Positions 1,303 through 19,847 of a DNA stretch of 30,855 nucleotides are shown one piece after another. Where the stretch lies: the IMG/VR virus record IMGVR_UViG_3300011115_000677, positions 1 to 30,855 of that record. One strand, 5' to 3'. This stretch comes from a virus. The notes under the pieces are model-generated. The model was not told the DNA's origin, did no database searches, and was given only the letters and a program-made list of their open reading frames with translations. Both the position numbers and the translations under genes were made by a program. The stretch's first letter is position 1. Each line of letters opens with the position of its first letter.

Positions 1303-1471
1303 ATTCGTTTCCCTCTTCTGGTTCACCACAAAAATATCCCTGCATAACACCCACCCATTGGGTTTCGTTCATTTTTTCCAACTGCTCTTCTTCTTTTTTT
1401 GTCATCTTGCGCCCGCACTCATTCTTGCATTTGGGTGAGGCGCAAAACGTTCTATCTTTAAATGGTATCAT
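1295..1471 (-). CDS. Small Cys-rich protein, 58 aa
   Basis: The frame encodes MIPFKDRTFCASPKCKNECG and continues to a second Cys near residue 48. The FCASPKCKNECGR segment resembles a short phage protein of unknown function with a C-x4-C-x3-C knuckle. The start overlaps the stop of the Tad2-like gene (ATGA at 1468-1471), and the stop overlaps the following gene by 8 bp, so it sits well in the operon. Confidence 0.65.
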   Translation of the reverse strand: MIPFKDRTFCASPKCKNECGRKMTKKEEEQLEKMNETQWVGVMQGYFCGEPEEGNEYD

Positions 1472-1842
1472 TCTTCAATCCAATCGGTTGCCATAAACGA
1501 ATCAAACTCAGGAACGAAGGGGAAACTGTCCATCATATGAAGTACCAGTTTGCCCGTGGTCTTATCCATGAATATGTAAGAGTCCGTCCACTCTTCCATT
1601 TGCGCACGCTTCCCATCATTTAAAAATGGAATTATTTTGCAAAAGGTAAGCGGTTGGGTATCTCCTTCAATAAACCACCCGTCAGAAACCATAATGCTTT
1701 CATCGTAGGTGTAATCTAAAAATCTAGGCTGGTAAGACAGAACCACTTCGCCCTGCATCATGAAATATAGGCTTCCTTTCCATACGCTTCTGGTAACTTT
1801 TGCCCCATTTTTAAGCGCTTCCATCGCTTCGCAGAAATTCAT
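1468..1842 (-). CDS. DUF2829/Tad2-like protein (candidate Thoeris anti-defence), 124 aa
   Basis: The N-terminus MNFCEAMEALKNGAKVTRSV, a Trp at position 21 followed by a short beta strand, and the end SFMATDWIEE follow the DUF2829 pattern (MNF-EAL--LK-GkkV-R--W ... D--A-DW). DUF2829 includes Tad2, which sequesters the cyclic ADP-ribose-type signal (1''-3' gcADPR) of Thoeris and so blocks activation of its effector. The family match is from pattern recognition. The anti-Thoeris role is inferred, because not every DUF2829 protein has been tested. It has an SD GGGAG and sits in the early operon beside recombination genes, a typical place for anti-defence genes. At 124 aa it carries an enlarged middle section (about residues 32-86). 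Confidence 0.7.
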   Translation of the reverse strand: MNFCEAMEALKNGAKVTRSVWKGSLYFMMQGEVVLSYQPRFLDYTYDESIMVSDGWFIEGDTQPLTFCKIIPFLNDGKRAQMEEWTDSYIFMDKTTGKLVLHMMDSFPFVPEFDSFMATDWIEE

Positions 1843-2489: not shown

Positions 2490-3335
2490 TTATTCTCCTT
2501 GTATTTTAGATTTCATGAAATCGATACACTTTTGAATCGAATCTTTTTGCATGTCTGACCATGTGTCAGAATTGGCCTTATCTAACCATTTCTGCGTGGT
2601 CTCTTCGCTTACCTTGAATAACTCCACAAGTCGCTCAATCTCTTTAATTTGGTCAGGTGTAGCTAATTCCTGGGCTACTGCTTCACGCTCAATTACAGCG
2701 CGTCCGTAACGGTCTGCAATCTCTTCATAAGAGAACGGGAACGTGTCGGTATCTTGGAACGTCTCAAAGCGTGACTTCTTAACTAAGCCCACACGATGGG
2801 CTCCGCGCTTTTGAATCTCAAACACCAGGTCAAAAAGATAATCTAATTTCTTGTAACAATCGAATGTTTGACCCAATACCGCTAAATTTTGTCCGTATTC
2901 ATTTTTGCTATGAGAAGTAATGATGACGTTCATGTCTAAACGAAACAACAAATTTAATAGCTGTTTCATACGTTTGTTCGCCTCACCGTAATGACGGCCA
3001 AAGTCAGTTCCTACTTTGCGCTCCGCTTTCTCAAGCAAGTCATTGTATGACAAAGTGAGCGAGTCAATGATTAATGTCTTATAGTCGTGCTTTGTGGTTA
3101 ACAATTCACGTACCTCATTAATCATTTCGTCAAAGTCTACAGTCATAAGCACCGCACCGTCTGACTTCTCAATCAAGCGTACATATTGTGGCTTGTTGGT
3201 TGAACCCTCAGTATCAATAATATAGGGCTTGGGGAACTGAATCGCAGCATACGTTTTGCCGACACCAGCAGAACCATAAAACAATGCTTTCATTCTGCAC
3301 TCAGACACCAAAGGTTTTTTTGCTTTTAACGCCAC
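2490..3335 (-). CDS. Sak4-like RecA-fold recombinase/ATPase (AAA_24)
   Basis: Walker A GSAGVGKT and Walker B KTLIIDSLT are about 65 residues apart, followed by a NVIITSHSKNEYG strand with a polar sensor and a C-terminal helical tail (about 250-281). This is the AAA_24/Sak4 architecture: single-strand annealing proteins with a RecA core that act with a cognate SSB. I chose GTG at 3335 because AGGAG sits at proper spacing. An ATG at 3371 is open (293 aa) but has a poor SD. It is directly upstream of, and probably translated with, the DUF669 SSB. Confidence 0.85.
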   Translation of the reverse strand: MALKAKKPLVSECRMKALFYGSAGVGKTYAAIQFPKPYIIDTEGSTNKPQYVRLIEKSDGAVLMTVDFDEMINEVRELLTTKHDYKTLIIDSLTLSYNDLLEKAERKVGTDFGRHYGEANKRMKQLLNLLFRLDMNVIITSHSKNEYGQNLAVLGQTFDCYKKLDYLFDLVFEIQKRGAHRVGLVKKSRFETFQDTDTFPFSYEEIADRYGRAVIEREAVAQELATPDQIKEIERLVELFKVSEETTQKWLDKANSDTWSDMQKDSIQKCIDFMKSKIQGE

Positions 3336-3424
3336 TTTACTTCTCCTAACATTTACATTAATTATGTCCATTTAAGGACTTAGATAAACCCGCTATACGC
3401 CCGACAACCAGGCGCATAAAGTGT

Positions 3425-3634
3425 TCATCTACGCTGACCATTTATACATTCCATGACCATGTGGAAAGCGTCCAGCATCCCCTTGTCTTTACCTCTTTCA
3501 AGACCTGTTCGCCATGTTTCACCAATGTCTGTAAACGTTTCGTAGTCATTGGGGTGTGCTTCAACAACATTTTCCCAGTAGTCAATTCGATGTTGTACCC
3601 AAACTCTGACCTGTTCCAAAGTAGTTCTTTCCAC
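3425..3634 (-). CDS. Hypothetical protein, 69 aa, GTG start
   Basis: The GTG start has an excellent AGAGGA SD. The sequence (VERTTLEQVRVWVQHRIDYW ... FTDIGETWRTGLERG) is amphipathic and well composed, resembling small conserved phage proteins of unknown function. A second frame on the same strand (3442-3690, ATG start) overlaps most of it. That frame has a coupled start, but after about 20 residues it reads like an out-of-frame shadow, so it may be only a short leader or a frameshifted N-terminus. Confidence 0.6.
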   Translation of the reverse strand: MERTTLEQVRVWVQHRIDYWENVVEAHPNDYETFTDIGETWRTGLERGKDKGMLDAFHMVMECINGQRR

Positions 3635-3686
3635 GTCTTGTTCCTCTTGTAATTCAATCGTTCTGCTGGCGTTATGTAGTCTTTAA

Positions 3687-3767
3687 TCATTTGCCAAACC
3701 CCTCTTTTATCAACTGTAAAATATGCCCGACCGCTGCAAACCTGGCTTCTTGCGCCCCTTCAAACAT
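3687..3767 (-). CDS. Possible 26-32 aa small protein
   Basis: The frame MFEGAQEARFAAVGHILQLI ends with a TGA that overlaps the next ATG (3687-3690). The ATG at 3767 has no SD. The same frame extends back to the TAA that ends the preceding 37-aa ORF. An AAGGG lies just before the codon ATA that follows that TAA. It may therefore start at a non-AUG codon, be reached by read-through, or be a decayed C-terminal part. Confidence 0.35.
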   Translation of the reverse strand: MFEGAQEARFAAVGHILQLIKEGFGK

Positions 3768-3785
3768 GTTGCTGTCTGACTCTAT

Positions 3786-4099: not shown

Positions 4100-4623
4100 T
4101 AGCGCTTACTCCAATAGAAATCCCCATGCTCCATATCTTGGTTGCACTGATAACCTGCGTTCTCCATTTCGTTGTTATAGAAATCTTCGCAAGCGGTATC
4201 GAGCAAATTGTTTAGGGTGTCTTTGTAGTAAGTAAGGATATTTACAGTGGTAACTTGTGCGAACTTGGCACGAGTTTTAGGGTTTGAATCTTTAAGCATG
4301 GCAAGCATGGCACAAAGAAAATCACTATTAAGTGTTTGGTCATCACCATAGCAAGCCCATTCAATTTCACGGTCTATAGATTCTATATAGAGTCGTGCAA
4401 ATTCAAGCTGGTATGACGTTGAAAGCATGTCGAGGTTAAGCTCGTAATGGTCGCTTTTGAACTTTCCAAAGTTTGCAACCATCTCCAAAGCGTAGTCTCT
4501 AAGATTACGTTCGTGGTCTAAAATCTTCGTTACTCCTGTAACAAAACCCTTAATGTCAAACGGGTCATCACTCCATGATTCTTGCTTTTGCGCGTTAGAG
4601 TACGCTAAACTTAATGCGTTCAT
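4099..4623 (-). CDS. Hypothetical protein, 174 aa
   Basis: The ATG at 4623 is preceded by AGGTGA. A GTG nine bases further up lies inside that SD, so it was not chosen. The protein is mostly helical and acidic (MNALSLAYSNAQKQESW at the start, DMEHGDFYWSKR at the end), with no membrane segment or recognised motif. It is the first large gene after the RHH regulator. Function unknown. Confidence 0.7.
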   Translation of the reverse strand: MNALSLAYSNAQKQESWSDDPFDIKGFVTGVTKILDHERNLRDYALEMVANFGKFKSDHYELNLDMLSTSYQLEFARLYIESIDREIEWACYGDDQTLNSDFLCAMLAMLKDSNPKTRAKFAQVTTVNILTYYKDTLNNLLDTACEDFYNNEMENAGYQCNQDMEHGDFYWSKR

Positions 4624-4704
4624 ATAATTCACCTATCAAAGTATTGTTTGAACAACCGAGGTTTTGGGGTGCGAACCTAAAGCCTCAGACCTACTTATTT
4701 ACAA

Positions 4705-4905
4705 CTATTCTACATCTGCGAAATCACCTAAAACATCCATCTTTTTTGCTAGCTTTACTCTTTGTTTCTCTACTAAATTCGTAACGTACTCACCCATAGT
4801 TATTTCTGAAATCAATGCTGCTTTCTTAAGAAGAAGCCATGTATTTCTAGGCATTCTCATGTGAAAGGCTCTGTCATCAGGTTGTTTTTTTCTTTTTGCA
4901 GTCAT
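4705..4905 (-). CDS. Ribbon-helix-helix regulator, Arc/CopG-like, 66 aa
   Basis: Start chosen at 4905 (AGAGG SD), not the ATG at 4938. A basic arm (TAKRKKQPDD) precedes the beta strand RAFHMRMP. Two helices follow: NTWLLLKKAALISEI, then the TMGEYVTNLVEKQ helix that carries the dimer core. This is the Arc/Mnt/CopG fold, which binds DNA as dimers through the paired strands. It is the first gene of the minus-strand operon and faces an intergenic region with three palindromes, so autoregulation of both divergent promoters is likely. No CI/Cro-type protein is seen, so this may be the main early switch. Confidence 0.8.
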   Translation of the reverse strand: MTAKRKKQPDDRAFHMRMPRNTWLLLKKAALISEITMGEYVTNLVEKQRVKLAKKMDVLGDFADVE

Positions 4906-4923
4906 GTTAGCCTCTGTATTAAT

Positions 4924-5005
4924 GTATCTTGATATCATGGATACAAATGTATCACGAACGATAAATCAATTGCAATAGAAAAACAAAAAATAATATCAAG
5001 ATATC
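4924..5005. promoter_or_regulatory. Divergent early control region with three palindromic operators
   Basis: Three palindromes with a 2-bp centre are visible: GTATCTTGATAT (4924-4935), GATACAAATGTATC (4940-4953) and ATATCAAGATAT (4993-5004). The first and third are inverted copies of one motif, ATATC-N2-GATAT. A palindromic TTGCAA (4970-4975) can serve as a -35 for both directions. Rightward, a TAATAT follows at 4991-4996 and overlaps the third operator. The arrangement fits repression by the adjacent RHH protein. Confidence 0.6.
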
Positions 5006-5044
5006 AAAAAAGACTTTTATGTTTGTTTGATTTAGATTAGGATT

Positions 5045-5329
5045 GTGAAAGTAAATTTTAAGAAGGGTTTAGCAGCTAGTTACTTCATGTTCCAAGCTGC
5101 TGGAACTTTTGAAATCGCGCATGATTGTACTCCGCCAAGACTATCAATCGTGCATTATGAAAACCGGACGCCATTGTTTGGCATGTTAACGGCTAGGTGC
5201 GTCCATACACATGAGGCAATTATAGTCATGAACGATCCCTATGACAACATTTCTTTAATATATATCCTCTCACAATCTATAATATCCCTAAGCACATGGA
5301 GTGCTATTCACAAAATTAAAGGGAATTAG
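5045..5329 (+). CDS. Hypothetical protein, 94 aa, first rightward early gene
   Basis: A GTG start at 5045 follows TTAGGATT, a short-spaced SD. The product contains HDCTPPRLSIVHYENRTPLF and a hydrophobic stretch near NISLIYILSQSIISL (about residues 68-82). It holds the cro/cII-like position before the replication genes, but no helix-turn-helix is evident. Ends 3 bp before the initiator gene. Confidence 0.55.
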   Translation: MKVNFKKGLAASYFMFQAAGTFEIAHDCTPPRLSIVHYENRTPLFGMLTARCVHTHEAIIVMNDPYDNISLIYILSQSIISLSTWSAIHKIKGN

Positions 5330-10506: not shown

Positions 10507-10692
10507 ATGGCTGTAATCAGAAACAGTTGGGTAGAGAAGGTCAAAAAGAAGAAGGTAGCGGAAACGGCACCATCTTATGAGTCCTATTCCCAAAAGAATG
10601 ACTTTGAACATCAAACACGCAAACCAAAGCAACGTCATACTCCATCATTAAAGGCTACGATGAGTAGGACTTTACGAGGGGTGAGAAAATAG
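10507..10692 (+). CDS. Hypothetical basic protein, 61 aa
   Basis: MAVIRNSWVEKVKKKKVAET at the start, then a Ser/Lys/Arg-rich, presumably disordered region ending SRTLRGVRK. No motif recognised. Its stop overlaps the GTG of the following zinc-ribbon gene (TAGTG). Confidence 0.5.
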   Translation: MAVIRNSWVEKVKKKKVAETAPSYESYSQKNDFEHQTRKPKQRHTPSLKATMSRTLRGVRK

Positions 10693-10886
10693 TGCAATGT
10701 CGCAGTTGTGGCTATGGTGAATCTCGCGTGGTTGACACTAACAAAGACGAGAGAACCAATCAAATTTACCGAAGACGCGAGTGCATAAAGTGCGGTGTTC
10801 GATTCACCACGCAAGAGCATTTACGCGATACATATACTCGTTCCCCATACAAAACCCCGCCGCCTAAAAGGATTTTAGAGAAATGA
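10692..10886 (+). CDS. Stand-alone NrdR-type zinc ribbon protein, 64 aa
   Basis: MQCRSCGYGESRVVDTNKDE followed by YRRRECIKCGVRFTTQEHL reproduces the zinc ribbon of NrdR (CxxCG ... S-VVD-R ... RRR-C--C--RFTT-E). Both CxxC pairs and the RRREC motif are intact, but the ATP-cone that makes up the rest of NrdR (about 150 aa) is absent. It could bind NrdR-box-like DNA or compete with host NrdR, or may just use the fold. Starts at GTG; overlaps the large terminase by 4 bp (ATGA). Confidence 0.75.
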   Translation: MQCRSCGYGESRVVDTNKDERTNQIYRRRECIKCGVRFTTQEHLRDTYTRSPYKTPPPKRILEK

Positions 10887-12442
10887 GTTTAAGCGCATCA
10901 GGAATAGCCAAACGCATTGCAGCAATCGAAGAATCTCGAAAAAAGGGTATTGAGAAGCAGATTACTATTAACGATACAAGGATGACGATACATGCTAAAG
11001 AACAGGATAAAATCTATATTCCAACTGCGACTGGTGATATTGCTCATCTCGATAATAACTTTGTGCGTGTCATTATGGGGCCTTATGGTAGCGGAAAGAG
11101 TACATGGGCAGCAGCAGAAATTGTTAGACGAGCTTGCGCAGTTCCACGTTGGCATAACGGTAGAAGACGAAGCCGGTGGGGAATTGTGCGAAATACTTCT
11201 GGGGAACTTGCCACAACAACCCTAGCTACTTGGCTTAGTTGGTTCGAAGATTTAGGCGATGTACGCAAGAGACAAAAGCCTATAATGACCTACGAACATA
11301 GCTTTAATGACGGGTTTGGTATTGTAGAACTTGAGTTATTATTCATAGCCCTTGATAGACCTGAAGATGTGCGCAAGATTAAATCTCTTGAGTTAACAGG
11401 TTGCTACATTAACGAGTTATCCGAAGTCCCAAAGGCAGCGCTTGCCCACATGAAAGGACGGGTTAACCGCTACCCATCAAAGGCGTTTTGTCATGAACCG
11501 TATTGGTCTGGCATTATTGCCGATACCAACCCACCTGAAGATGACCACTGGATATTCAAAGACTTTGAAGAAAATACTTATGAAGGCCATCGGTTATTCA
11601 AACAACCACCTGGTTTAATTAAGGATGAAGATGACAAGTGGGTACGAAATCCAGCGTGTGATAACTTTGACCATTTGCCTCATGATTACTATGAGAAGCT
11701 CGCCCAAGGACAGTCTCAAGAGTTTATTAAGGTGTTTTGTCTTGGTGAATACGGTGCTGTTGGTTTTGGTAAGCGAGTTTATCCAGAATTTAATCCCGAT
11801 TTTCATGCTGTTGATTCTCTTGCAGCTATTCAAGGAGAGCAACTTATTTTAGGCTGGGACTTTGGGTTAACACCTGCTTGCGTGGTATTGCAGTTGTCGG
11901 CCAGAGGCCAGTTGCTTGTGCTTAAAGAGTACATAGCCGATGGTATGGGTATTAGAAGCTTTGCCGAGGCTATTGTCATTCCTCAAATAGCCAAAGACTT
12001 TCCTTATTGCAAAATAGGGATGTCCATTGCAGACCCAGCAGGAAACGCACGAAACGAAATAGTTGAGGAAATGTCCTGTATTGGCGAGCTAAATACCCTA
12101 GGCATTCCCACGCACTCAGCACGAACAAATGATATTGACCCACGTCTAGGTTCTGTCCGTTACTTCCTAAACCGTATGGTTGATGGCAAGCCAGGATTTG
12201 TATTGGATAAAAAACAATGCCCCACTTTATTTAAGGGTTTTGTTAAAGGCTATGTGTATTCTCGAATAGCCGTAGGTGGTGAAGAGCGCTACAAAGACAA
12301 GCCAAACAAGAACGTGTACTCACACGCAATGGATGGTCTAGGTTATGGGTGCCTTGAATTAGCCAGTGATAGAATTACTAATGACAAGGTTGAAAGCAAC
12401 AAGTACGAGAATATGTACAATCCGGTAATGAGGATTTTTTAA
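10883..12442 (+). CDS. terL: Terminase large subunit
   Basis: 519 aa. ATPase: Walker A GPYGSGKST (66-74), Walker B ending CYINE (174-178). RNase H-like nuclease: GWDFGLTP (Asp326), SIADPAG (Asp384) and HAMDGLGYG (Asp484), which form the acidic triad. Length and motif order are normal. It docks on the portal, uses ATP to translocate DNA and cuts genome ends. The frame continues open beyond its TAA stop into the coiled-coil ORF that follows. Confidence 0.92.
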   Translation: MSLSASGIAKRIAAIEESRKKGIEKQITINDTRMTIHAKEQDKIYIPTATGDIAHLDNNFVRVIMGPYGSGKSTWAAAEIVRRACAVPRWHNGRRRSRWGIVRNTSGELATTTLATWLSWFEDLGDVRKRQKPIMTYEHSFNDGFGIVELELLFIALDRPEDVRKIKSLELTGCYINELSEVPKAALAHMKGRVNRYPSKAFCHEPYWSGIIADTNPPEDDHWIFKDFEENTYEGHRLFKQPPGLIKDEDDKWVRNPACDNFDHLPHDYYEKLAQGQSQEFIKVFCLGEYGAVGFGKRVYPEFNPDFHAVDSLAAIQGEQLILGWDFGLTPACVVLQLSARGQLLVLKEYIADGMGIRSFAEAIVIPQIAKDFPYCKIGMSIADPAGNARNEIVEEMSCIGELNTLGIPTHSARTNDIDPRLGSVRYFLNRMVDGKPGFVLDKKQCPTLFKGFVKGYVYSRIAVGGEERYKDKPNKNVYSHAMDGLGYGCLELASDRITNDKVESNKYENMYNPVMRIF

Positions 12443-13094: not shown

Positions 13095-13355
13095 ATGGCT
13101 ATACAATCACAGATTACTTTAATATGCAGTTTTGCAGGTGAAAATAACGATGTAACCCCAAGACTATGCCGTTTGTATTGCCCAGCAAGCACACTTGCGC
13201 AAATTAGCACAGCAGGATATCTCGACAACTACTTAAAAACTCAGAATATAGCATTAGAAGCTACCGACTTTGTATTTACCGTTGGTTCAGATGGCCATCA
13301 GGTTTACAAACCAGTGTTTGCAAACAGCGTTTGTACACTAACCGTTTTACCATAA
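13095..13355 (+). CDS. Hypothetical, possible minor virion protein, 86 aa
   Basis: GGGAG SD. The sequence (MAIQSQITLICSFAGENNDV ... ISTAGYLDNYLKTQNIALEATDF) resembles small beta-rich proteins found near phage structural genes, with an 'I-TAGYL' helix and an 'L-A-DFVFT-G' strand. They may decorate virions. This is a weak pattern call without a named family. Confidence 0.5.
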   Translation: MAIQSQITLICSFAGENNDVTPRLCRLYCPASTLAQISTAGYLDNYLKTQNIALEATDFVFTVGSDGHQVYKPVFANSVCTLTVLP

Positions 13356-13372: not shown

Positions 13373-13618
13373 ATGTTATTGCAAGAAGCGTTATCAAATT
13401 TACAAGCAGGCAAACAAATGCACCGTGCAGCATGGGAAATTAACGAAGGTTATTTATCTTTAATGCCTGGCATGACCCACGTTTGGAAAGTAGTTATTGT
13501 TCCATCAACTAATGCTGGAAACTTTATTTTCTCATTAGAAGATTTGTTGGCTGATGACTGGAAAGAGTTCGAGCTACCAAAAGAAGTAGTTGATGCAGAG
13601 TTCGCAGAAGCTGCTTAA
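13373..13618 (+). CDS. Second DUF2829/Tad2-like protein, 81 aa
   Basis: The start at 13373 has AAGGAG upstream; an ATG at 13331 overlaps the preceding gene and was rejected. MLLQEALSNLQAGKQMHRAA, W20, the strand GYLSLMPGM, and SLEDLLADDWKEF at about 55-67 follow the DUF2829 scheme (--EAL--L--GK--HR--W ... D--A-DW). It is shorter than the early-operon copy, close to a minimal domain. Its place just before the portal gene suggests late expression, so it may be a virion or assembly protein sharing the fold, or a late-acting Tad2 homologue. Confidence 0.6.
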   Translation: MLLQEALSNLQAGKQMHRAAWEINEGYLSLMPGMTHVWKVVIVPSTNAGNFIFSLEDLLADDWKEFELPKEVVDAEFAEAA

Positions 13619-13645
13619 GACACCCTTAGATTAGGGCGTTAAAAG

Positions 13646-13675
13646 GCGACTTTGACATAGGATTGTTGAAGTCGC
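13646..13675 (+). other. Stem-loop upstream of portal gene
   Basis: GCGACTT (13646-13652) pairs with AAGTCGC (13669-13675) over a 16-nt loop. There is no T-tract. It lies between the Tad2-like gene and the portal SD (CGGGGA), so it could insulate the portal mRNA from upstream decay. Confidence 0.4.
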
Positions 13676-13718
13676 TACTTAAGGACAAGGTATTTAACCC
13701 AACGGACGGGGAATTGGC

Positions 13719-15914
13719 ATGGAAATTATTGCTGAACAAATGCCCATTGAAGATGTTGAGGAAATCAACGAGCGTCTACAGTCACGACTAGAAGATGCTG
13801 GAATCGATGAGGCAGAAGTATTAAAAAGAGCACGCGAAGACTTAGTCCTTTGGGATGGGTACTTTGACGAGAACGTAGTGCGTGGTCGGGATGACATGAA
13901 CTTCTTATTGCGCGACCAATGGTCAGCAGTCGAACGTTCCGAGTTCTCACGCTTGTTTAAGCCTGCAATGACATTCAATAAGCTATACGATGTCACCAAA
14001 AAGATTGCAGGGGAACAACGCAAAAACAAACCTGACTTGATGGTGCGTTCACTAAGCGGCAAAGCCAATCAGAAACAAATTGATTTGCGTGCTGACTTAG
14101 TCAGATCCATATCGTACAAAAGTCAGAACGATTTAGTCTATCAGACAGCGTTTAGGTCGGCATTGATGATGGGTTATGGGGCGTTTGAAATATGCCTAGA
14201 CTACGAAAACCCACTGTCATTTAACCAAACCATACGCTATGAATTAATTCCCGATGCCAGCCGAACATCATTTGACCCCACGGCTATGATGCCCCATAAA
14301 GGGGACGGTAACTTTTGTTCGCGCCAATTCCTGTACACTAAAGAAGAATTTTATGCTACTTACCCGCATGTAATGAACCCTGTTAGCTACTCAGACCCAA
14401 GGTCATTGCTAGATTTCCAATGGGAAACCCGCGATACCATAGTGGTTTGTAAGTACACCCGTAAAGAATGGTTCCCTATCAAACTACTTCTTTTGTCCAA
14501 TGGTGAGTCAATTACTCAGGATGAGTGGGACGAAAGACAGAAAGAGTACAAAATTAAAGAGGAAATCGCACGGTCTTCACAAGTGGTTGGCGATATTATT
14601 CTTCGTGAAATCCCAACAATCGTTGGTGAGCGTAATTCAAAAGATTATGTCGTTCGCCAATACGTGCTAACTCAAAATCAGATTATAGACTTTACCGACT
14701 GGCCATCAAAATACCTGCCAATCGTGTTTGTTGATGGTGACTCGAATTATATTAATGGTAAACAATATACCCGTTCGTTCATTCATGAAGCAAAAGACGC
14801 TCAGAAATTCATTAACTATGTGGGTTCTGAGATTGCAGCGGAAATTAAAAACCGTAGACGGGAACAATGGCTTGGGACACCCGATAATATTGTCGGAAAT
14901 GAGCAAGTGTGGCGTAACCCTGAATTACAGGCAGGTATTCTTACAGCGAAACCCGACCCTAAAACAGGGGCATTGCCGCAAAAAATGCCAGCATGGGAAC
15001 TATCCCCTACCCTATTGCAACAATTCCAGCGTGGTTCGCAAGACATGCGCGAAATATTGGGCTTTTCTGAAAATGAGGCGCTCCAAGGCCATGACATGTC
15101 AGGCAAAGCTAGGCGTGAGCGCAAACTGGAAGGCTCAATGTCCGCTTATGTCTGGTTTGATAACCTTAATCAGGCAGTAGAGCAGGGCGGAAGGGTGGTA
15201 AACGACCTTTTACCTGTAATTGCAGGGGAACATGAGCGACACATGATTGTCTCTAAAGCCGATGGAAGGTCAGAGCCAATCACATTAAACAAAGTGACAG
15301 GTCAGACCGAAGATGGCGAACCAATTCGCGAAAACGTACTAGATACAGGAGATTATGATGTTGAAATCGATACAGGGCCGAGCTTTGCGGTGCAGAAAGA
15401 CATTGCACTTGAATTTTTCCAGCAGACGATACAAGCTAATCCGCAAACTTTCCCGCTTATTGCAGACCTTTGGGCTAAGAACTTGGATGTTCAGTTCATG
15501 CCACAAATTGCTTCTCGCTTTAAGTCGCTCGTTCCCCCTCAAATTATTGCCGAAGAGGAAGGCAAGAAATTACCCCCTCAACCGCCAAGCCCTCAAGAAC
15601 AGATGATGCAAGCGCAGATGAAGGCGCAACAGCAACAAATGGCTATGAATGAGCAAAAAATGCACCTTGAAGAACAACAACTCATGGAAAGAGCCGAAGA
15701 GTTGAAGATTCGTAAAGAGAAGCATTTACTTGAACAAGCTGAAATGATTATGAAGTCCCAAGAGATGGCAGATAAGCGACATCTTGAGCGTCAAAAGCTT
15801 GGGCTTGAGAATCGCAAGGTTGAATTGGATTATGAGAAAGCAGACAACGATTTTTCATCAAAATTGGCACAAGTTTTGTCAAGCATTCACAAATCCACTC
15901 CTAAAGAAAGATAA
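13719..15914 (+). CDS. Portal protein, P22 gp1-like
   Basis: 731 aa, close to P22 gp1 (725 aa). The N-terminal region (WDGYFDENVVRGRDDMNFLL, then MTFNKLYDVTKKIAGEQRKN) and the wing/stem with LGFSENEALQGHDMSGKARRE are characteristic of the P22-type portal family. Residues about 625-731 are Gln/Met-rich, then helical, matching the C-terminal barrel of P22 portal. Twelve copies form the packaging vertex, binding terminase outside and gp4 later. SD CGGGGA. Confidence 0.9.
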   Translation: MEIIAEQMPIEDVEEINERLQSRLEDAGIDEAEVLKRAREDLVLWDGYFDENVVRGRDDMNFLLRDQWSAVERSEFSRLFKPAMTFNKLYDVTKKIAGEQRKNKPDLMVRSLSGKANQKQIDLRADLVRSISYKSQNDLVYQTAFRSALMMGYGAFEICLDYENPLSFNQTIRYELIPDASRTSFDPTAMMPHKGDGNFCSRQFLYTKEEFYATYPHVMNPVSYSDPRSLLDFQWETRDTIVVCKYTRKEWFPIKLLLLSNGESITQDEWDERQKEYKIKEEIARSSQVVGDIILREIPTIVGERNSKDYVVRQYVLTQNQIIDFTDWPSKYLPIVFVDGDSNYINGKQYTRSFIHEAKDAQKFINYVGSEIAAEIKNRRREQWLGTPDNIVGNEQVWRNPELQAGILTAKPDPKTGALPQKMPAWELSPTLLQQFQRGSQDMREILGFSENEALQGHDMSGKARRERKLEGSMSAYVWFDNLNQAVEQGGRVVNDLLPVIAGEHERHMIVSKADGRSEPITLNKVTGQTEDGEPIRENVLDTGDYDVEIDTGPSFAVQKDIALEFFQQTIQANPQTFPLIADLWAKNLDVQFMPQIASRFKSLVPPQIIAEEEGKKLPPQPPSPQEQMMQAQMKAQQQQMAMNEQKMHLEEQQLMERAEELKIRKEKHLLEQAEMIMKSQEMADKRHLERQKLGLENRKVELDYEKADNDFSSKLAQVLSSIHKSTPKER

Positions 15915-15980: not shown

Positions 15981-16352
15981 CTAACTATATTTTTCAAGGT
16001 ACTCTATCGCTGATAGTAAGTTTTCTTTTGATTCTTGAAATTTACCCAAAGCTATATTGCATTGGGTGCAAAGCAATCCTCTTATTTTCCCTGTTGCATG
16101 ACAATGGTCTACGCAAAGCTCTCTAATTCTTTTTGTTTTTGATAAAAAATATGACTCTTTCTTTTTACAAATAGCGCAAACTTCCTTTTGCTGTTTTAAC
16201 AGCTCTCTAAAATATTCGTCACCAATATTATATTTTTCTTTCCTTTTAAAGTCTCTTCGGCATGGTCTGCATCTATAGGTATTTTGGCTTTTTACAAACC
16301 AAGCATCTTTTTCTGTTAACCCACCATGAATCTTGCATATTTTAACAATCAT
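15981..16352 (-). CDS. HNH / recombination endonuclease VII-type homing nuclease
   Basis: 123 aa, AAGGA SD, opposite strand to all its neighbours. Zinc-binding pairs CRPC (28-31), CAIC (59-62) and CTQC (95-98), with the catalytic LCVDHCHATGKIRGLLC segment (79-95, His83/His85), identify the endonuclease VII fold. It ends in a helix ALGKFQESKENLLSAIEYLE. Free-standing members act as intron-less homing endonucleases in phage genomes. Here it sits between portal and scaffold, next to a run of inverted repeats, so it looks like a selfish insertion that brought its own promoter. Confidence 0.88.
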   Translation of the reverse strand: MIVKICKIHGGLTEKDAWFVKSQNTYRCRPCRRDFKRKEKYNIGDEYFRELLKQQKEVCAICKKKESYFLSKTKRIRELCVDHCHATGKIRGLLCTQCNIALGKFQESKENLLSAIEYLEKYS

Positions 16353-18843: not shown

Positions 18844-19043
18844 AAGACAACAGCATGGTTCAATCTAACAATGCCTTTGTTAGAAAAGAGCAAGCCAAAA
18901 TGAAAACTCGTATGGGTAATCGTCCAGGCGCACCTAAAGAAATGCTCGAATTTAATGCCTATATGAGCAACGATGGCGAGAAAGCACAAGCTGCTGGCCG
19001 TAAATTGTGCAAAGGCTTAGATGATGCGTTCCCTTTGAAATAA
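18840..19043 (+). CDS. Hypothetical protein, 67 aa
   Basis: MKDNSMVQSNNAFVRKEQAK with a basic middle (KTRMGNRPGAPKEML) and a C-terminal helix (AQAAGRKLCKGLDDAFPLK). Coupled to the previous gene by ATGA and followed at once by a strong terminator, so it closes the scaffold/coat transcript. Confidence 0.6.
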   Translation: MKDNSMVQSNNAFVRKEQAKMKTRMGNRPGAPKEMLEFNAYMSNDGEKAQAAGRKLCKGLDDAFPLK

Positions 19044-19051
19044 GTTGATAC

Positions 19052-19094
19052 AATCGACATGTCCTAGTGATATGTCGATTTTACTCTCTTTTTT
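19052..19094 (+). terminator. Rho-independent terminator after capsid genes
   Basis: AATCGACAT (19052-19060) and ATGTCGATT (19072-19080) form a perfect 9-bp stem with an 11-nt loop, followed by TTACTCTCTTTTTT. It separates capsid genes from tail genes, lowering expression of the latter. Confidence 0.8.
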
Positions 19095-19112
19095 CATCAT
19101 GAGGAGGTCGCC

Positions 19113-19847
19113 ATGTCCCAAGTCGTAAAGACGGTCAACGAGTTAATTACAAGCTCTCTTTACCTACTTGGTGAGTTGGCTACGAATGAAACTCCTGATT
19201 CGTTTATGTTGTCTACAGGGTTGGAATTGATTAATGAAATTCTGGCTATGTATGACTCTGACAGTATCTATATACCCTACATAACCACCGTTAGCTTTAA
19301 CATGGTCGTAGGACAGCGCACCTATTCGCTTTCAGATATGGTTTCTGCTGATGTAGTAACCAATCGCGTGGTTGATTTAAGTTATGCCAACTATACCGTG
19401 CCAAGCGCAGGTCAGGGCATTATCTACCCATTACAAATTATTAACAAAGCCCAATATTATGGTGTTACCCGCTTAACACCGCTTAATACCCGTCCAGGAT
19501 TTATCTTTTTAGATAAACAAGCAGACGAAAGCTTTATTACCCTATATCCATCACCTGACCAGCCATACCCATGCCAATTAGGCGTTAAAAGTATGATGAA
19601 TAGTGTGGTTGCCAATGGAAACCTTGGGCAAATGCCACCTTTTTACTATGGTCTATTGAAATTCACTTTAAGCCGAAGATTCCTTGCGTATTACCCATCG
19701 GGTAACTGGCCTCAACAAAATGAGGACACCTACCAGGAATATATGAACATCATTAAAAATGCCAATGAAACGGATTTAACCATCAGACCATCTGCCGTAT
19801 TAAGCAGAGCTGAGCCGTTCTACTGGCAAAATATATTGGCGTACTAA
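19113..19847 (+). CDS. Head-tail adaptor, P22 gp4-like tail accessory factor
   Basis: 244 aa, longer than P22 gp4 (166). The N-terminal helical part (TVNELITSSLYLLGELATNE; GLELINEILAMYDSDSIYIP) is that of gp4/gp6-type connector proteins; a beta section about 60-160 and a closing helical part follow (PPFYYGLLKFTLSRRFLAYY). Gene order (coat, this, gp10) supports it. Twelve copies would extend the portal and help seal packaged DNA. SD GAGGAGG. Confidence 0.75.
   Translation: MSQVVKTVNELITSSLYLLGELATNETPDSFMLSTGLELINEILAMYDSDSIYIPYITTVSFNMVVGQRTYSLSDMVSADVVTNRVVDLSYANYTVPSAGQGIIYPLQIINKAQYYGVTRLTPLNTRPGFIFLDKQADESFITLYPSPDQPYPCQLGVKSMMNSVVANGNLGQMPPFYYGLLKFTLSRRFLAYYPSGNWPQQNEDTYQEYMNIIKNANETDLTIRPSAVLSRAEPFYWQNILAY

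Follow-up and report, generated by a model that had tools for sequence, protein, structure and literature searches.

A short Tad2-like protein encoded before the portal gene in a podovirus lineage, and its tandem relative on the opposite strand

Sponges such as Tad2 are studied as optional counter-defence genes; in the group of uncultured bacterial viruses described here, instead, evasion of the alarm signals of the host may be built into the block of head genes. The window, i.e. the whole stretch of 30,855 nucleotides that was analysed, encodes one short Tad2-like protein in front of the portal gene and a second, longer one on the opposite strand, and this arrangement raises the question of what a member of this family does beside a portal, and why the same genome carries two.

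Two Tad2-like genes in one genome

The short gene (13373-13618, plus strand) begins with an ATG at 13373 and its stop codon ends at 13618, giving a product of 81 aa with one module; a good ribosome-binding site lies upstream (AAGGAGAAATAAGG), and an alternative TTG start at 13331 would give a 95-aa reading. The protein matches the Pfam family PF11195 (Tad2-like, formerly DUF2829) with 32.1 bits and an E-value of 1.7e-7, above the curated cut-off of 25 bits. The gene that starts 100 bp downstream (13719-15914, plus strand) encodes a P22-like portal (PF16510, P22_portal, 342 bits), which confirms the initial annotation of an 81-aa Tad2-like ORF upstream of the portal. A promoter scan found none close to the short gene. 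When the full record of 30,855 bases was searched with PF11195, two genes only were recovered, with three matching stretches; an NCBIfam search returned nothing for either product.

The second gene (1468-1842, minus strand) encodes a protein of 124 aa that matches PF11195 with 47.2 bits over two stretches and is composed of two modules of about 60 aa, module 1 (residues 1-62; 1657-1842, minus strand) and module 2 (residues 63-124; 1471-1656, minus strand). In hhalign comparisons module 2 aligns to module 1 (probability 96.3%, E 1.5e-9), to the short late family and to ordinary Tad2; profile comparison with the short family gave a probability of 97.8% and an E-value of 1.3e-12 for module 1, and 95.8% and 6.8e-9 for module 2. 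The difference in size between the two proteins is therefore explained by the tandem structure of the longer one. The two had been described as sharing the same pattern: EAL..L..GK..HR..W ... EDLLADDW is indeed present in the short protein, but the statement is slightly too strong for the tandem protein, whose motif is looser (EAM..L..GA..TR..W ... FMATDW). Next to the tandem gene, on the same strand, are genes for a DUF669 protein (1983-2486; PF05037, 26.1 bits) and an AAA_24 ATPase (2490-3371; PF13479, 82.4 bits). Judging from the gene blocks, AAA_24 ATPase and DUF669 on one side and terminase, portal, scaffold and coat on the other, the tandem copy would be expressed early and the short copy late.

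AlphaFold2 models were obtained for both proteins as single chains, with a pLDDT of 86 for the short protein (70 sequences) and of 94 for the tandem protein (25 sequences), in which the order H-E-E-E-H-E occurs twice. A Foldseek search with the short model placed Tad2 chains, AcrIIA7/HgmTad2 included, at all ranks from 1 to 24 (probability 0.98-1.00, best E 2.7e-3), the probability falling to 0.13 at rank 25. With VIA-align the same model gave Z 8.9-9.8 against ten Tad2 entries, over 64-66 residues and with an rmsd of 2.2-2.5, the next unrelated entry reaching Z 3.8; the tandem model gave Z 9.2-10.3 against Tad2 entries and 2.5 for the next one. Both models hence match solved Tad2 structures, and the possibility that the two proteins have unrelated folds, which had been raised at the outset, is discarded. 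The Foldseek match at rank 25 is to a neck protein from phage 812 (probability 0.13; VIA-align Z 3.8, rmsd 9.4) and was not counted in favour of a structural role. For the tandem model, VIA-align places only 61 residues although its alignment extends over residues 1-124, so that the model seems to pair the beginning of module 1 with the last part of module 2; a domain swap is not claimed.

Conservation of the pair and linkage to the portal

A search of IMG/VR with the single short protein returned 12 loci, and a search with the alignment of short proteins 78 loci with 65 distinct proteins; in 78 of 78 a portal homologue begins 47-237 bp past the match. Since these loci had been found through the short gene itself, the linkage test was redone starting from the portal. 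This re-search gave 72 loci, 64 of which have at least 400 bp upstream; the short gene lies just before the portal in 61 of the 64, in a sample that is biased to near relatives (portal identity 55-98%), the portal patterns having been taken from the window, and that shares many contigs with the 78-locus set. The three members without it (L143, L147 and L152) have a portal identity of 56-60%; no other sponge family was detected by Pfam in the ten proteins scanned there, which correspond to part of the ORFs between terL and portal. Neither PF11195 nor the short-family profile matched in the cultured phages with related portals, BA3, P26218, PBR31 and MW202557.

The surroundings of the short gene are conserved as well. 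In the window the interval between terL and portal begins at the gene for the terminase large subunit (10883-12442, plus strand; PF04466, 27.7 bits; phrog_2, 96.7 bits). Directly upstream of the short gene is a small gene for a protein of 86 aa (13095-13355, plus strand), for which neither Pfam (above cut-off) nor PHROG gave a match; a homologue is found in 75 of the 78 loci, and the remaining three are truncated there by the end of the contig. Between the short gene and the portal gene an RNA hairpin with a 13-bp stem is predicted (13645-13676, plus strand). Among 62 distinct intergenic sequences the stem has at least 9 bp in 49 and the fold z is -2 or lower in 51, and in 20 sequences 8 of the 13 pairs are changed on both sides, versus 2.2 (sd 1.0) in shuffles; the hairpin is mostly devoid of a T run, and an Rfam search assigned it to no family. 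Three further elements of the window can be mentioned here: an NrdR-like zinc-ribbon protein (10692-10886, plus strand; PF22811, 51.8 bits), whose gene immediately precedes that of the terminase large subunit and is kept in many relatives; an Endonuclease VII-type ORF on the opposite strand between the portal and scaffold genes (15981-16352, minus strand; PF02945, 80.1 bits), probably a mobile gene; and an imperfect inverted repeat with 28-nt arms (19036-19096, plus strand), ahead of the ORF at 19113.

The presence of two copies was surveyed with PF11195 over 31 contigs longer than 30 kb, plus L143 and SPO1. A short copy occurs in 29 of the 31, a number that is not independent, 28 of these contigs having been chosen through the short copy; 23 of the 29 also carry the tandem copy, in all 23 cases on the opposite strand. 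The tandem profile revealed no further tandem copy in the remaining six contigs, where two weak hits correspond to the short copy. An upstream frame in the contig L130 that matched the tandem protein with phmmer was judged to be a cross-match between relatives. Nineteen second copies were retrieved from relatives, and each of them has the length of a tandem and matches the tandem profile; within about 2.5 kb of them a DUF669 homologue is found in 17 cases and an AAA_24 ATPase homologue in 15. As the tandem copy, its strand and these neighbours recur across contigs, the pairing is an old feature of this podovirus lineage. The initial annotation of two Tad2-family proteins therefore holds as a property of the lineage, their gene blocks having opposite orientations, and the short late protein is real, lineage-wide, homologous to the tandem copy and unusual in its placement.

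The short protein of the window retrieved no match among cultured phages, and the divergent lineage member L144 retrieved 16 records. Genome contigs gave nothing when scanned with the single short protein; with the alignment, one 34-kb contig was found in a Planctomycetota MAG, which carries the genes of a phage of the same lineage, short Tad2-like gene included. This assignment was not used as evidence for the host and is a host hint at best, a binning error being possible. No description of a portal-linked or of a tandem Tad2 was found in the literature consulted, which mostly leaves out subscription papers and so is not proof of absence; one paper presents a podovirus with one Tad2-like gene (PMC13299392) and another a DUF2829 line within a domain table (PMC5735904).

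So strict a linkage could be explained by domestication, in which the Tad2 fold would have lost signal binding and taken on a core role in morphogenesis, or a place among the minor virion proteins, e.g. as an accessory of portal or terminase. This is the main rival to a counter-defence role. It agrees with the presence in 61/64 portal-anchored relatives, with the position directly before the portal in 78/78 loci found by the family's own profile, with the small neighbour co-conserved in 75/78 and with the disappearance of both signatures of ordinary Tad2 proteins, discussed below. Conversely, four phages with related portals and three members of the lineage lack the gene, which indicates that the protein is dispensable for P22-type assembly in general; the fold search gave no convincing structural neighbour besides Tad2; and the sequence changes more rapidly than that of the portal. 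Indeed, mean identity to the window proteins is 59% for the short protein, 54% for the tandem protein, 66% for the upstream gene and 81% for the portal (23, 23, 22 and 20 genomes, respectively). The short protein thus diverges faster than the portal, unlike a tightly packed part of the virion, although small proteins diverge fast anyway. Weighing these points, we regard domestication as unlikely, yet as an alternative to be taken seriously.

The position of Tad2-like genes was also viewed in twelve cultured phages, picked by eye from listings, so that the following counts are not frequencies. In four unrelated phages the gene lies in or beside the virion genes: in Skulduggery the order is terL ... 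Tad2 ... portal, in Vibrio 1.205.O the gene directly follows a P22-like portal, in Vibrio 1.127.O it is one gene ahead of the major capsid gene, and in Koot it is flanked by two internal virion proteins. In the remaining eight it is found in early, accessory, lysis or end regions, so that the late position of the short gene is not typical of the family. In the Pseudomonas phage Skulduggery the Tad2-like gene (4776-5270) comes directly after an ORF (4477-4779) with a sub-threshold match to the Acb2/Tad1 hairpin (24.9 bits, cut-off 27), both between terminase and portal, and the two are a candidate counter-defence pair. In Vibrio 1.205.O (3261-3773) the Tad2-like domain just past the portal is fused behind a crAss001_48-related domain (PF21825, 69.6 bits).

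Signatures, pocket and origin of the short form

The two forms were compared with 13 ordinary Tad2-family proteins, that of SPO1 and 12 more from cultured phages, of which only SPO1 Tad2 is experimentally characterised. All 13 carry WNG behind the first conserved tryptophan and W[VLA][PA]S ahead of the last helix; among the 70 short proteins these motifs occur in none and in one, respectively, and both are absent from the 25 sequences of each tandem module. Taken as marks of a functional sponge of the SPO1/Myroides type, these signatures of ordinary phage Tad2-family proteins are thus all but missing from the short proteins and missing from the tandem modules. The short family has a signature of its own, around MPGM..VWK and P.PNAGN; its most conserved stretch is NAGN, found in 65 of 70 rows, and a tryptophan is kept after it (AGNW) in 7 of the 70, which belong to the more divergent of the portal-linked proteins. 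In the hhalign alignment NAGN corresponds to the beta3-beta4/beta4-alpha3 part of Tad2, which lines the gcADPR pocket according to a review (PMC12043709). The pocket may have been rebuilt rather than lost. Since both short and tandem copies lack the two ordinary signatures, their ligands are not readable across from known Tad2 proteins, and the replacement of these signatures makes it probable that the ligand of the short protein is not bound exactly as in SPO1 Tad2. The long insertion between beta2 and beta5 of the HgmTad2 type, associated with cyclic dinucleotides, is absent too: the protein has 81 aa, and 64-66 of its residues align to chains of 99-104 residues.

The same structural matches lead to another interpretation, namely that the Tad2 fold serves here as an inhibitor that binds a protein, as an anti-CRISPR or otherwise, and not as a nucleotide sponge. 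AcrIIA7 entries (8kbi, 8kbk) are among the matches with Z 8.9-9.2, and the solved AcrIIA7 entry has the HgmTad2 fold; however, the titles of 8kbi and 8kbk describe a Tad2-type protein, in complex with nucleotides or in its apo form, and the window holds no pointer to CRISPR anywhere, which makes this interpretation improbable.

Concerning the origin of the two forms, proteins of the ordinary Tad2 type are widespread, a single tblastn query having retrieved 373 phage records, and the searches made here recovered the short form from one podovirus lineage only; the simpler direction is therefore that the late block recruited a Tad2-type gene. In a tree of 62 rows and 72 columns, unrooted and with warnings for long branches, the 13 ordinary proteins form one group (100/100) that is attached to divergent portal-linked proteins, the opposite end being occupied by the tandem modules. 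The initial annotation had also considered a late structural protein from which the anti-defence sponge evolved. The ordinary proteins do join the most divergent portal-linked members, several with AGNW, and an unrooted tree of 72 columns lets either direction be drawn. This proposal is nevertheless unsupported, as ordinary Tad2 occurs in many phage types versus the single lineage of the short form, the short protein's own sequence has no match in the cultured phage collection, and a virion role has been shown for no family member; we consider it very improbable. Derivation of the tandem copy from the late copy is not claimed either, given the few columns, the long branches of the tandem modules and the lack of a root.

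Possible roles and comparison with known Tad2 systems

In the best-supported reading, to which we give an even chance, the short protein is a Tad2-fold, signal-binding counter-defence protein of the sponge type, fixed in the late operon beside the portal. The family, the fold, the tandem architecture, the linkage and the conservation throughout the lineage are established by the data above; timing, ligand binding and anti-defence activity are inferred. The protein would be made together with terminase, portal and coat, and would sequester a nucleotide-type alarm signal just as these head proteins could set off TIR or similar defences; in the early phase this task would fall to the tandem copy, encoded on the opposite strand, perhaps with another ligand. 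A major head protein (PMC12578639) and a portal protein (PMC11984713) are reported as triggers of TIR defence. The virion-block position of Tad2-like genes in the four unrelated cultured phages and the faster divergence of the short protein relative to the portal also speak for the sponge. Against it, a gene that is nearly fixed and strictly linked is unusual for accessory counter-defence and fits a core role at least equally well, and the replaced signatures and the atypical late position count on the same side. A division of labour between the two copies, as initially proposed, is plausible and better founded than before, and two signal molecules for two copies are possible.

More tentatively, a Tad2-fold signal-binding protein may have become a permanent component of the head-gene module and may act in head assembly, as a partner of portal or terminase, as a protein carried in the virion, or as a sponge for the alarm raised by portal and coat, with the tandem relative doing the early work; one fold would then exist in two forms, an early one with two modules and a late one with a single module. 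With a portal-side copy in nearly every member and a tandem form on the opposite strand, timed immune evasion becomes a testable proposal, and the lineage offers a large natural set of proteins with a putatively rebuilt pocket for finding new signals.

Compared with known systems, the short protein shares the Pfam family PF11195 and the predicted fold with SPO1 Tad2 (Gp34.65) of the Bacillus phage, and profile comparison of the short family with the 13 ordinary phage members gave a probability of 98.2% and an E-value of 3e-14; it differs in its length of 81 aa, with a shorter middle, in the absence of WNG and W[VLA][PA]S and in its fixed place before the portal. The fold is also shared with HgmTad2/AcrIIA7 and SptTad2 (Z 8.9-9.5), which bind cyclic dinucleotides; dinucleotide binding is assigned to the long insertion between beta2 and beta5 in the review cited above (PMC12043709), and the 81-aa protein has no room for it, the chains of those proteins being of 99-104 residues. 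ModTad2, from a Myroides odoratus prophage, binds His-ADPR by its entry title and has the same fold (Z 9.1-9.2), but is a Tad2 of ordinary length, unlike the short protein. Sponges of the SPO1/Myroides type bind gcADPR or His-ADPR, thereby block Thoeris, and assemble as homotetramers made of V-shaped dimers. Skulduggery gp08 and the DUF2829 protein of Vibrio 1.205.O resemble it in being encoded beside terminase or portal genes; however, they belong to different phage types and are long forms, with an ordinary Tad2 behind another N-terminal part, PF21825 in the case of 1.205.O. Finally, the Tad2-like gene of Ochrobactrum phage ZX86 adjoins those for a Sak4-like annealing protein and a single-strand binding protein, a setting comparable to that of the tandem copy beside AAA_24 and DUF669, but the ZX86 protein is a single ordinary Tad2 domain, whereas the lineage described here has two modules in tandem.
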